In this document: one piece after another, positions 25,632-29,000 of the stretch
Layout: each line of letters begins with the position of its first letter
Numbering within the stretch: the first letter of the stretch is position 1
Assembly (NCBI RefSeq): GCF_029909975.1
Contig: NZ_CP094516.1
Location: forward strand, 2,790,001-2,854,000
Direction: 5' to 3'
DNA: 64,000 nucleotides
From: Bradyrhizobium sp. ISRA430
Lineage (GTDB): Bacteria > Pseudomonadota > Alphaproteobacteria > Rhizobiales > Xanthobacteraceae
The notes under the pieces: generated by a model
What the model was told of the DNA's origin: nothing
The model's database searches: none
Seen by the model: the letters and a program-made list of their open reading frames with translations, nothing else
Program-made: the position numbers and the translations under genes

Positions 25632-25937
25632 ATGAGCGACACCGTCACCGCGCCGAAGACGCGGACCAAAACCAAAGTCGAGCGGCCGCGGCTGCACAAG
25701 GTCATCCTGATCAACGATGACTACACGCCGCGCGAATTCGTCACACTGGTGCTCAAGGCCGAATTCCGCATGACCGAGGATGAGGCCTACAAGGTCATGA
25801 TCACCGCGCACAAGCTTGGCGCCTGCGTCGTCGCCGTGTTCACCAGGGACGTCGCCGAGACCAAGGCGACGCGCGCCACCGACGCCGGCCGCGCCAAGGG
25901 CTATCCGCTGCTGTTCACGACCGAGCCTGAGGAATAG
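25632..25937 (+). CDS. clpS: ATP-dependent Clp protease adaptor ClpS
   Basis: 101 residues. The core reads PRLHKVILINDDYTPREFVT followed by MTEDEAYKVMITAHKLGACVV, and ends in FTRDVAETKATRAT; NDD and the MITAH helix form the pocket for N-terminal destabilising residues. ClpS hands N-degron substrates to ClpAP. No clpA is adjacent, so this may be the second ClpS that many alphaproteobacteria carry. The start is set by AGGAGGCGG just before the ATG at 25632. It follows DUF190 by 43 bases without a terminator, which places it at the end of the fluoride operon. Confidence 0.93.
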   Translation: MSDTVTAPKTRTKTKVERPRLHKVILINDDYTPREFVTLVLKAEFRMTEDEAYKVMITAHKLGACVVAVFTRDVAETKATRATDAGRAKGYPLLFTTEPEE

Positions 25938-26083: not shown

Positions 26084-26132
26084 GAGCATGATCTTTTCGG
26101 AAAACCGCTGCACACTTTTCCGGATCATGCTC
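26084..26132. repeat. GAGCATGATC palindromic repeat, copy 1
   Basis: GAGCATGATC-N29-GATCATGCTC, with inner arms CGGAAAA and TTTTCCG. A near-identical copy occurs at 30923-30971 and a degenerate one at 42317-42352. The right end touches the stop codon of the radical SAM gene. Confidence 0.85.
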
Positions 26133-27313
26133 TAGGCGCCCGCCAACGTGTCACGCACGCTGACGCGATCGCCGTCCGGCTTGCTGACGTAGAGATGGCT
26201 CTCCAGTACGGATTGCATGTTCTCGAACATCGAATAGAGATCGTCGCAATAGACCGAAGGATTGTCGTAGCCGTTCGTCCTGGAGAAGCGGTGCGGAAGA
26301 TAGCCTCCCCCGCAGGCGTTCATGAATTTGCACTGGCGACACTTCGCGCAAAGATTGATCGAAGCATCGCGGGCGGCCTTCCAGCGCGGCTCATTCCGGA
26401 CCTCGTCGATCGCATGATCGAAGATGTTGAAGCTGGTGTTGGTGAAGCCGTCGCCCGCAATCCGCAGCACGTCATGGGCCTCCACAGTGCCGTCGGTCAT
26501 CACGGTGCAAAGCTCGACGGGTTTGTGGCCCACGCCCTCGGTCGGCGCATTGTTGCCAAGCAGGGCGGTGATCATGTCGGATATGATGCGGATATCGGTC
26601 GCCGCAGTCGTGCGATTTGCCTCCAGCCAGATCTCGAACAGCCCCTTGTAGAAGGCGGCAATGGATGGCGGCTTCTCATCCACCGTCGCGTCGGGGATCA
26701 TGATGTCGTAGTTGGAGATTCCACACGCGGCGAAAAAATCGGCGTATTCCTGCGGCGCGTAAGCGGGATTGCAGACGGCAAGGGCAATGACGCCAATGTT
26801 GCGCGCCACCAGCATGCGGGCGGCACGCTCTACGGCGGCATGAGTGCCCGTACCCTGAAACGTCTTGCGATGGAGGTCGTGAATATGGGCCGGCCCGTCT
26901 ACGCTGATCGCAACCGAAATGTTGCGAGCCTCGAAGCAAGCCAGCCACTCGTCGTCGATCAACACGCCGTTGGTCGTGACCGCGATGGGTATCTCGCAGC
27001 CCGTGCGCGATGAAATGCCCTCGCAGGCCTCGGCAAAGCGGTGGAAGTTCTCGACGCCCCACAGCAGCGGCTCGCCGCCGTGCAGAATAATGGGAAAATC
27101 GGCGAGGGAATATCTGACGACGTGCTCCTCGATCCGCAGCAGCAATCGATGCTGCACCTCAGGGCCCATCAGCTTCGGCTTGCTATAAACGGACGCGTCG
27201 CGGAACCAGTAACAATAGGAGCAGTCGATGTTGCATCTCGCCGCGACCTTGACCAGCAATTGCGTGATCGGCTGATCGTGGAAGGCGGCACAATCTGAAC
27301 CGTCAGCCGACAT
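26132..27313 (-). CDS. Radical SAM/SPASM peptide maturase (cyclophane-forming type)
   Basis: 393 residues. The radical SAM cluster motif is CNIDCSYC (Cys27, 31, 34), followed by IILHGGEPLLW and SVDGPAHIHD. The C-terminal SPASM domain has Cys269, then CAKCRQC (322, 325, 328), Cys334 and Cys356, with GGGYLPHRFS and GYDNPSVYC, the wording of maturases of the GrrM/OscB and FxsB kind, which join an aromatic ring to a nearby side-chain carbon to make three-residue cyclophanes. The gene follows a 92-residue peptide with aromatic-Arg-Arg repeats by 33 bases, so that peptide is the likely substrate. The exact subfamily is not settled. No clear ribosome site, so translation may depend on the upstream gene. 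Confidence 0.92.
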   Translation of the reverse strand: MSADGSDCAAFHDQPITQLLVKVAARCNIDCSYCYWFRDASVYSKPKLMGPEVQHRLLLRIEEHVVRYSLADFPIILHGGEPLLWGVENFHRFAEACEGISSRTGCEIPIAVTTNGVLIDDEWLACFEARNISVAISVDGPAHIHDLHRKTFQGTGTHAAVERAARMLVARNIGVIALAVCNPAYAPQEYADFFAACGISNYDIMIPDATVDEKPPSIAAFYKGLFEIWLEANRTTAATDIRIISDMITALLGNNAPTEGVGHKPVELCTVMTDGTVEAHDVLRIAGDGFTNTSFNIFDHAIDEVRNEPRWKAARDASINLCAKCRQCKFMNACGGGYLPHRFSRTNGYDNPSVYCDDLYSMFENMQSVLESHLYVSKPDGDRVSVRDTLAGA

Positions 27314-27346
27314 ACCGATTACCGAGACGGGCTGGAGGACACTCAG

Positions 27347-27625
27347 CTAGTAGCCTCGAACAAATCCCCCTCGGCGGAATGCGCCGACGCCCGGAGCATA
27401 TGCCCCCCTGCGAAAGGCACCTGCATTGGCACCTTTGGCAAAACCGCCTCGTCTGAACGCGGCCTCGGTCGCCACGGGCTTGTCGGAGACAACGCCTTGC
27501 TCCGTACCTTGTCCGCGCAGATCGTTCAGCAATGCGTCGATCCCCTGATGGTCGCTCTGAATGGTTGCGCCCGGCCCATGCAATTGAATGAGGCTTGCCA
27601 AAACCTTCAGCGTCGTAATCGGCAT
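27347..27625 (-). CDS. RiPP precursor peptide with repeated AFRRG core
   Basis: 92 residues. A leader of about 50 residues (MPITTLKVLASLIQLHGPGA.., then ..GIDALLNDLRGQ) has no signal peptide. The tail is Gly/Ala/Arg-rich with repeated units: Phe-Arg-Arg at 57-59, 71-73 and 83-85, Phe-Ala-Lys at 62-64, Tyr-Ala-Pro at 76-78 and Phe-Val-Arg at 88-90, ending in GY. These aromatic-X-X triplets are the kind of site three-residue cyclophane synthases modify, and the neighbouring maturase is of that class. AGGAGC seven bases before the ATG fixes the start at 27625; longer in-frame starts add unrelated sequence. No protease or exporter gene is adjacent. Confidence 0.85.
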   Translation of the reverse strand: MPITTLKVLASLIQLHGPGATIQSDHQGIDALLNDLRGQGTEQGVVSDKPVATEAAFRRGGFAKGANAGAFRRGAYAPGVGAFRRGGFVRGY

Positions 27626-27809: not shown

Positions 27810-29000
27810 TTACGCCATCACCACCGGTGCCTCCTCGGCGAGCCCGTACACGCGCTGCGCCTTGGAAAACCCCGCGATCGGAAACTCGCCGAGTTCGCGC
27901 CAGCCATGGTGGCAGACGTTGGCGAAGCCTTCCGAGGCCACAACGGTCCGCCCCATGCGGCCGGCGATCTTCTCCAGCCGTGCCGCAAGATTGACCGCGG
28001 GTCCGATGCAGGTGAAGTCGAGCCGGTTGCCCCCGCCGATATTGCCGTAGAGGATGTTGCCGACATGCAGCGCAACGCCGAAGCGGAAGCGCTCGATGAT
28101 GTCGCCGACCGGGAAGGCGAGCGCTTCGACACTGGCGCGGGATTTGCGCGCGGCTTCCAGCACCCGCGAACAGACATGCGCGGCATCGCCGACATATTCG
28201 TCGATCGGAAACACCGCGAGCAGGCCGTCGCCCATGAATTTCAGGACCTCGCCGCCGTGGCCGCGGATCGCGGTCACCTGACAGTCGAAGTATTGGTTGA
28301 GGATCTCGACCACGGTCTCGGCAGGCAGCCGGTCGGACAGCGCGGTGAAGCCGCGCAAGTCCGACAGCCAGATCACCGCCTGCATGGTGTCGGTGTGGCC
28401 GCGGCGGATCTGGCCGCCGAGGATGCGCGCGCCGGCGCGATTGCCGACATAGGTATCGAGCAGCATCGCGGCGGTGCGGCGCAGGCTGACGATCTCGCTG
28501 ACGCGCGCGAGCGGCGCCATGACGGCCCGGATCGTCGCAATGTGGTCATCGCTGAAGCCGCCGGGATGCCGTGTCATCCAGCTCGTCGCGTGGATCGATC
28601 CGTCGAGAAACGGCATCGGCACCGCGACGTAGTCGGTCGCGCCTTCGGCGCGCATGTCGTTGATGATCGGAAACCGCTTGCTGTCGGGGTCGTCGACGCG
28701 TCCTCTGACCTCCAAGCCTTGCTCGAACACGATCCGAAGCGGGCTCTGAGCGAATTCGGGCGTATCCAGGATGTCGAAGTCGACGGTGCCGACCTCGACC
28801 TCCTCGCCCTGCCGCCAGATAAAGTTGCGGCCGAAGATTTCGGGATGCAGCGTGCGAATGAAGATGCCGAACCGCCACACCGGCAGGCCGGCTGCGACCA
28901 GGCGTTCGCAGACATCGGCGATCATCCTGGCGGGTTCGCCCGATGACCTCGCGCCATCGATCAGCCAGTTGGTGATCCGCTGCAGCTCGGGGCTTTCCAT
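27810..29000 (-). CDS. Class III adenylate/guanylate cyclase
   Basis: 396 residues. The C-terminal catalytic domain has VIWLSDLRGFTALSDRLP (first metal Asp), GGEVLKFMGDGLLAVFP (second Asp) and GGGNRLDFTCIGPAVNLAAR (transition-state Asn and Arg), so it should be active. The N-terminal 190 residues have no membrane segment and look like a sensory domain of the type common in Rhizobiales soluble cyclases (PVWRFGIFIRTLHPEIFGR). The product is presumably cAMP. It lies upstream of the RiPP cassette on the same strand, 184 bases away, and is probably separate. Confidence 0.93.
   Translation of the reverse strand: MESPELQRITNWLIDGARSSGEPARMIADVCERLVAAGLPVWRFGIFIRTLHPEIFGRNFIWRQGEEVEVGTVDFDILDTPEFAQSPLRIVFEQGLEVRGRVDDPDSKRFPIINDMRAEGATDYVAVPMPFLDGSIHATSWMTRHPGGFSDDHIATIRAVMAPLARVSEIVSLRRTAAMLLDTYVGNRAGARILGGQIRRGHTDTMQAVIWLSDLRGFTALSDRLPAETVVEILNQYFDCQVTAIRGHGGEVLKFMGDGLLAVFPIDEYVGDAAHVCSRVLEAARKSRASVEALAFPVGDIIERFRFGVALHVGNILYGNIGGGNRLDFTCIGPAVNLAARLEKIAGRMGRTVVASEGFANVCHHGWRELGEFPIAGFSKAQRVYGLAEEAPVVMA

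Follow-up and report, generated by a model that had tools for sequence, protein, structure and literature searches.

The window, a 64,000-nucleotide stretch of the Bradyrhizobium sp. ISRA430 genome (8.56 Mb, a single contig), very probably encodes a triceptide (three-residue cyclophane RiPP) in a self-contained cassette of two genes, a product that would carry up to five Phe-x-Arg/Lys rings. Assignment to the RiPP gene pairs of the three-residue cyclophane kind is well supported by the structure and gene logic described below. The branch has no name among the curated models listed, and on the best reading it is an apparently undescribed triceptide branch.

The original prediction had placed a 92-residue peptide 33 bases before a radical SAM/SPASM enzyme, and both the coordinates and the gap were correct (Table 1): 33 bases separate the precursor stop codon from the maturase start, with both genes on the minus strand. 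The precursor begins with ATG, and by eye an AGGAG lies 7 bases upstream. A search for a sigma-70-like promoter for the cassette found none, the single terminator-like site does not exceed what shuffles yield, and no Rfam family scored above its gathering threshold at the cassette locus. A second precursor match elsewhere in the host genome is weak (E 0.06). On the 3' side of the maturase, a 24-base repeat piece (26084-26107) occurs in 20 genome copies with at most 2 mismatches (5 of them exact), and its reversed control in 0 copies. The cassette is flanked by clpS on one side and a nucleotide cyclase-domain gene on the other, and clpS also adjoins the cyclase gene in genomes without the cassette. 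In nine of ten single-contig cassette-free genomes the two genes are at most ~1.2 kb apart, with a distance of ~120 bases in five; in the tenth (L127), no cyclase match was found inside the 1.5 kb searched. Because clpS and the cyclase gene lie so close together in cassette-free genomes, the cassette looks inserted between them, with loss elsewhere also a possible history.

Table 1. Coordinates of the cassette, its neighbors in the window, and the tandem repeats of two distant relatives (coordinates with an L prefix refer to that locus).
Feature	Position	Strand	Remarks
Precursor gene	27347-27625	minus	92 aa plus stop; leader aa 1-37, linker 38-55, core 56-92
Leader-coding part	27515..27625	minus	aa 1-37; dN/dS conservation
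Core-coding part	27350..27460	minus	aa 56-92; F-x-[RK] motifs
Maturase gene	26132-27313	minus	radical SAM/SPASM; 393 aa plus stop
clpS	25632-25937	plus	Pfam ClpS, 84.9 bits
Nucleotide cyclase-domain gene	27810-29000	minus	Pfam Guanylate_cyc, 34.3 bits
FDRCFNK tandem repeats (F-D-R, F-N-K)	L050:7634-7973		just before maturase; Cys in repeat
FDRCFNK tandem repeats (F-D-R, F-N-K)	L058:3428-3674		just before maturase; Cys in repeat

The precursor core contains the motifs FRR57, FAK62, FRR71, YAP76, FRR83, and FVR88. With 8 R/K and no D/E, Cys, or Ser, it is the basic, multi-motif core that had been predicted. Each core Phe (F57, F62, F71, F83, and F88) is followed by R/K at i+2 (5/5), an outcome reached by 0 of 20,000 composition-preserving shuffles; when Phe and Tyr are counted together, the figure is 5/6, which 37 of 20,000 shuffles match. 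We extended the count to 121 unique precursors, namely, that of the window and the 120 listed of 776 homologues found at an E value of ≤0.01. In this set, 600 of 604 post-leader Phe residues have R/K at i+2 (534 Arg and 66 Lys), counts that come from related sequences and are not independent events, and the conservation of the core repeats in relatives was thereby confirmed. The four exceptions occur in three precursors with divergent, frameshifted-looking C-terminal tails. Residue i+1 after Phe varies (R 365, V 116, A 75, I 37, L 7, E 3, and H 1), and there are five motifs in 111 of the 121 precursors, six in 4, four in 3, and three in 3. The five F-x-[RK] motifs of the original list therefore stood, and Tyr-Ala-Pro as a conserved sixth motif was rejected. 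Tyr is mostly followed at i+2 by P or G (P 90, G 58, R 52, and A 9 in the 121 precursors), which makes Y76-A-P unlikely as a standard site; Gly lacks a beta carbon. Y.P is present in 86 of the 121, and 52 Tyr have R at i+2, the same number as have F at i+1, i.e., overlapping Y-F-R. Four Bradyrhizobium precursors (L032 to L035) have an additional AFRRGG..YPG-like unit, and the linker of L032 is repeated and EQS-rich; the core thus looks modular.

The leader (aa 1-37, MPITTLKVLASLIQLHGPGATIQSDHQGIDALLNDLR) is conserved, and the linker (aa 38-55) is variable. When the window was compared with four syntenic relatives by the Nei-Gojobori method, leader, linker, core, and maturase had dN/dS values of 0.007, 0.298, 0.059, and 0.139, respectively, making the leader the best-conserved part of the precursor among these relatives. 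Over all pairs of 22 precursors, the values were 0.148, 0.313, and 0.147, respectively, with 0.127 for the maturase. The leader is probably the part that the enzyme recognizes. In line with the earlier remark that the precursor was not recognized as a described product, it reaches no NCBIfam or Pfam cut-off.

Next, we considered the distribution of the pair. The precursor was present in 44 of 265 Bradyrhizobium genomes (E ≤ 1e-8). A maturase search (E ≤ 1e-60) returned 45 of 265, comprising the 44 precursor carriers (at least 76% identity) and G003, which has a 42%-identity enzyme and a precursor of the sister-group type described below. Precursor and close maturase were thus both present or both absent across the 265 genomes, none of which had an intact precursor without a maturase; among the 44 maturases, that of G072 has an internal TGA and that of G184 is split across two contigs. 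A scan of named genomes gave at least 374 relatives among the stretches examined, of which the best 80 were kept; 21 of these are Bradyrhizobium loci (L026 to L046), and the organism-named relatives among the protein matches listed are likewise Bradyrhizobium. The precursor lies upstream of the maturase in all 21 loci, with 26 to 151 bases between the precursor and the start of the maturase match. The prediction of a two-gene cassette is borne out by this co-occurrence in the same 44 genomes and by the adjacency in 21/21 named loci.

In the fetched flanks (up to 8 kb, shorter at contig ends), any given third gene (ORF of ≥80 aa) was shared by at most 5 of the 21 loci, a count that excludes the pair itself and antisense or out-of-frame ORFs within it. 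No exporter, protease, or immunity gene of that size was found traveling with the pair in these flanks, which agrees with the earlier observation that no protease or exporter lies alongside; the neighboring ClpS is a protease adaptor. The window's site is common to 4 of the 21 loci. Clustering of flanks (up to 5 kb) by blastn gave ~14 genomic contexts among 22 loci, the window included, a number that is approximate because contig ends cut several flanks short (upstream, <500 bases for L026 and L038; downstream, absent for L046). Such patchiness (44/265) and variety of contexts would be in keeping with an accessory, mobile trait.

The maturase carries CxxxCxxC at C27, C31, and C34 and later cysteines at C325, C328, C334, and C356; none of the seven varies across an alignment of 28 rows, that of the window among them. 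The sole Pfam domain above its cut-off (29.5) was Radical_SAM, at 50.2 bits. The enzyme therefore has the radical SAM CxxxCxxC and C-terminal SPASM-type cysteines of the triceptide class, which also has an adjacent precursor with repeated aromatic-x-x motifs, as found here (21/21 loci; 600/604 F-x-[RK] in the listed precursors). Matches to 64 NCBIfam models were obtained, and all of the 25 listed fell short of their cut-offs. The two best models among the matches listed are those of cyclophane formers. The scores were 298.2 bits for YhhB (NF041707; cut-off, 445), 270.1 for FxsB (TIGR04269; cut-off, 370), 177.1 for XyeB (cut-off, 450), 117.2 for GrrM/OscB (TIGR04261; cut-off, 310), 111.3 for DynA (cut-off, 450), 107.7 for AmcB (cut-off, 425), and 64.4 for DarE (cut-off, 650). 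Since its scores are under both cut-offs, the earlier assignment of the enzyme to GrrM/OscB or FxsB was rejected; it is nearer YhhB/FxsB than GrrM/OscB.

An AlphaFold2 model built from the 28-row alignment had a mean pLDDT of 89.6 and a pTM of 0.86. In a Foldseek search, the nearest solved folds were four chains of ChlB (TM score of 0.85 to 0.86 by query and 0.89 to 0.91 by target; rmsd, 1.7 to 2.0; 31 to 32% identity), which was solved together with its substrate leader, and the next matches were anaerobic sulfatase maturases. ChlB is a cyclophane synthase according to the accessible part of PMC12636437 and PDB titles. This fold and the seven invariant cysteines upheld the prediction of a cyclophane-type radical SAM/SPASM maturase.

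To place the enzyme, we built a 49-row tree. Annotated plasmid copies of YhhB and FxsB were used because 0 of 398 Pseudomonadota genomes contained either reference enzyme above its cut-off; the three YhhB copies entered the tree as residues 1 to 400. The long-branch sequences L067 and L068, present in a first tree, were omitted, and L046 was too short for either. The 21 Bradyrhizobium enzymes formed one clade (100/100) adjoining a 17-row group, the joint 38 rows being supported at 99/97, with FxsB-type, YhhB, and ChlB rows outside. ChlB grouped with YhhB (100/100), apart from the window clade. The window clade thus falls outside both the FxsB rows and the YhhB/ChlB rows. Constraining the 21 rows, YhhB, and ChlB to form a clade was rejected (p-AU 5.4e-4), a value to be read with the caution that the constrained group was named after the tree had been seen and that long branches are in play. 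Membership in YhhB was rejected on the score, the missing HExxH fusion, and the tree placement.

Among the 17 rows are ten enzymes from Hyphomicrobiales (L012, L047, L048, L051 to L056, and L066), here called the sister group. This group resembles the window cassette in its maturases (40 to 43% identical to that of the window) and its Y/F/W-x-R cores. It differs in precursors with an N-terminal SRRxFLxRL-type signal and C-terminal runs of YRR/FYRR or Y-x-R and in spacing, the maturase match beginning ~160 to 270 bases past the precursor. In nine of the ten precursors aligned (L053 left out), the signal SRRxFLDRLKxLGxGFGAA...AxA begins with SRR in eight and SRH in one (L055), followed by a Gly/Ala-rich stretch, often with A-x-A. 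This N-terminus reads like a twin-arginine signal, suggesting that the sister group may export its RiPP by Tat. In 7 sister-group precursors, the Pfam Tat model gave no match at an E value of ≤1. With NCBIfam models, two of the 7 were just under the cut-off of the Tat signal model (14.6 and 16.3 of 16.7), two were far under that of the Tat-target model (16.7 and 16.2 of 48.45), and three had no NCBIfam Tat match. We found no report in the open-licence literature of a twin-arginine signal with a RiPP precursor and radical SAM enzyme. The window, the sister group, and YhhA may have a leader piece in common (QSDHQGIDALL, KSTNPALDGII, and QSGNPAIQRLR, respectively); an hhalign comparison of the window and sister leader profiles gave P 7e-4 at a probability of 26%, and of 20,000 shuffles each, 1,454 equaled the leader motif score of the window and 64 that of L044.

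Aromatic-x-R/K motifs also occur in the cores of other relatives, where core borders were chosen by hand for the shuffle tests (20,000 shuffles each). The counts were 18/22, of the Y-x-R type, in L047 (equaled by 0 shuffles), 13/14 in L054 (0), 11/14 in L048 (66), 3/3 in L057 (87), and 3/4 in YhhA (270). The FDRCFNK repeats of Filimonas (L050) and Gemmatimonadetes (L058) scored 7/7 each (0). In a Mesorhizobium relative (L059:7449-7962), the tandem repeats read NFANYAM and so lack the basic third residue, and in L049, L060, and L061 no clear aromatic-x-basic precursor was recognized; both observations speak against the triceptide reading. The Aliikangiella relative has EHREQPDQ-type repeats (H-R-E) 5' of its maturase (L060:7527-7817), a possible His-x-Glu substrate. 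In a Rhodococcus plasmid locus (L118:1559-4270), which also has a small ORF, radical SAM and HEXXH are encoded by separate genes, like a split YhhB fusion.

The triceptide reading is favored by the strict F-x-[RK] register, which is kept as i+1 varies, and by the co-inheritance of the pair, adjacent in 21/21 loci over ~14 contexts with no third shared gene. It is further favored by the nearest solved fold, ChlB, and by YhhB, which links Tyr/His to Cbeta of Arg, as well as by the excess of aromatic-x-R/K over shuffles in Filimonas, Gemmatimonadetes, and L047. Other facts weigh against it: the maturase scores under all listed cyclophane-maturase cut-offs, a Phe-Arg or Phe-Lys link is unnamed in the accessible part of PMC11002830, and the kinship of window and sister leaders is weak. 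The first of these would equally suit a RiPP cassette with another radical modification of Arg/Lys (hydroxylation, epimerization, desaturation, or a different Arg-Phe link), and peptide-acting radical SAM enzymes form several kinds of bond, as the accessible part of the literature describes. We consider this unlikely, given an aromatic-x-basic register that stays constant around a variable middle residue, a cyclophane synthase as the nearest solved fold, and two cyclophane formers as the best NCBIfam models among the matches listed.

The GAFRRGG-like repeats, which we take to resemble RGG-type tails, could instead mark the small ORF as a basic, Gly-rich protein with a structural or nucleic-acid-binding role and no relation to the adjacent enzyme. 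Co-occurrence of the precursor with a close maturase across 265 genomes, together in ~14 contexts, and a leader conserved more strongly among syntenic relatives than any other part make this highly improbable. Thioether (sactipeptide or ranthipeptide) or formylglycine chemistry shares the superfamily, the anaerobic sulfatase maturase model matches the enzyme (133 of 349 bits), and such a maturase is the second fold match. The substrate sequence contradicts it, because the window core has neither Cys, as sactipeptides and ranthipeptides would have, nor Ser. Cys follows the leader in just 4 of the 121 unique precursors, and the window precursor has none, so that we regard this chemistry as close to excluded.

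On the triceptide reading, the maturase would bind the precursor leader, and its CxxxCxxC cluster would yield a 5'-deoxyadenosyl radical that takes a beta hydrogen from the third residue, Arg or Lys, of each F-x-[RK] motif. The beta-carbon radical would then add to the Phe ring two residues earlier, giving the C(sp2)-Cbeta bond between i and i+2 that marks the triceptide class, with the electron leaving via an auxiliary cluster. With up to five such rings (-10 Da), the peptide would be stiff and strongly basic. Since no exporter, protease, or immunity gene was found traveling with the pair in the fetched flanks, genes located elsewhere would serve to remove the leader and export the product, or the peptide would act within the cell. 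A role in competition or signaling among soil or root bacteria may be considered.

A more specific proposal, to which we give about even chances, is a separate triceptide branch in which one stand-alone enzyme would form five consecutive Phe-x-Arg/Lys cyclophanes, the minimal unit being spread over ~14 Bradyrhizobium sites and the sister group exporting its ringed peptide by Tat. If the triceptide reading is right, one small enzyme and a two-gene cassette would suffice for a highly charged multi-ring peptide, of use in the production of stiff cationic macrocycles, and the restriction of the third position to Arg/Lys would amount to a substrate rule. With the sister group it may be asked whether cytoplasmic maturation of a RiPP can be followed by export through Tat.

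In the open-licence literature, we found no report of a Bradyrhizobium cyclophane, although a published triceptide landscape may list such precursors, or of rhizobia with RiPP and SPASM; the accessible part of that literature on Bradyrhizobium RiPPs and radical SAM concerns thioamidated RiPPs only. The accessible part of PMC11002830 names links of Trp to Arg or Asn (XncB), Trp to Asn or Asp (OscB), Phe to Asn (XncB or OscB), Phe to Ser (MscB), Tyr to Asp (YxdB), His to Ala (HaaB and ScaB), and Tyr or His to Arg (YhhB), all at Cbeta from residue i to i+2. Phe-x-Arg and Phe-x-Lys are absent from the ring pairs named there. Arg as the third residue is nonetheless not new, since YhhB links Tyr/His, and XncB Trp, to Arg.

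GrrA/OscA of the GrrM/OscB systems resembles the window precursor in its Gly-rich core with repeated aromatic motifs. P0117, a longer relative, gave a weak GrrA/OscA1 match (21.9 of 31 bits), whereas the window precursor itself, searched against this family as the original prediction had proposed, had no TIGR04260 match at an E value of ≤1 (cut-off, 31 bits). The FxsB family, Haa included, likewise has a stand-alone maturase of similar length and an adjacent precursor, but it occupies another branch of the tree, with the window maturase at 270 of 370 bits, and the one Haa locus examined contains a TPR protein and an N-acetyltransferase, for which no counterpart was found with the window pair. 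YhhB differs in that its three annotated copies have 711 to 716 aa with HExxH near residue 600, in contrast to the 393-aa window maturase without HExxH. As in the window cassette, the precursor lies directly before the maturase in YhhA/YhhB and ChlA/ChlB; the three YhhA genes end in SYDRMHHRHNRS, i.e., the aromatic-x-Arg motifs YDR, HHR, and HNR, and ChlB provides the solved fold nearest to that of the window maturase.
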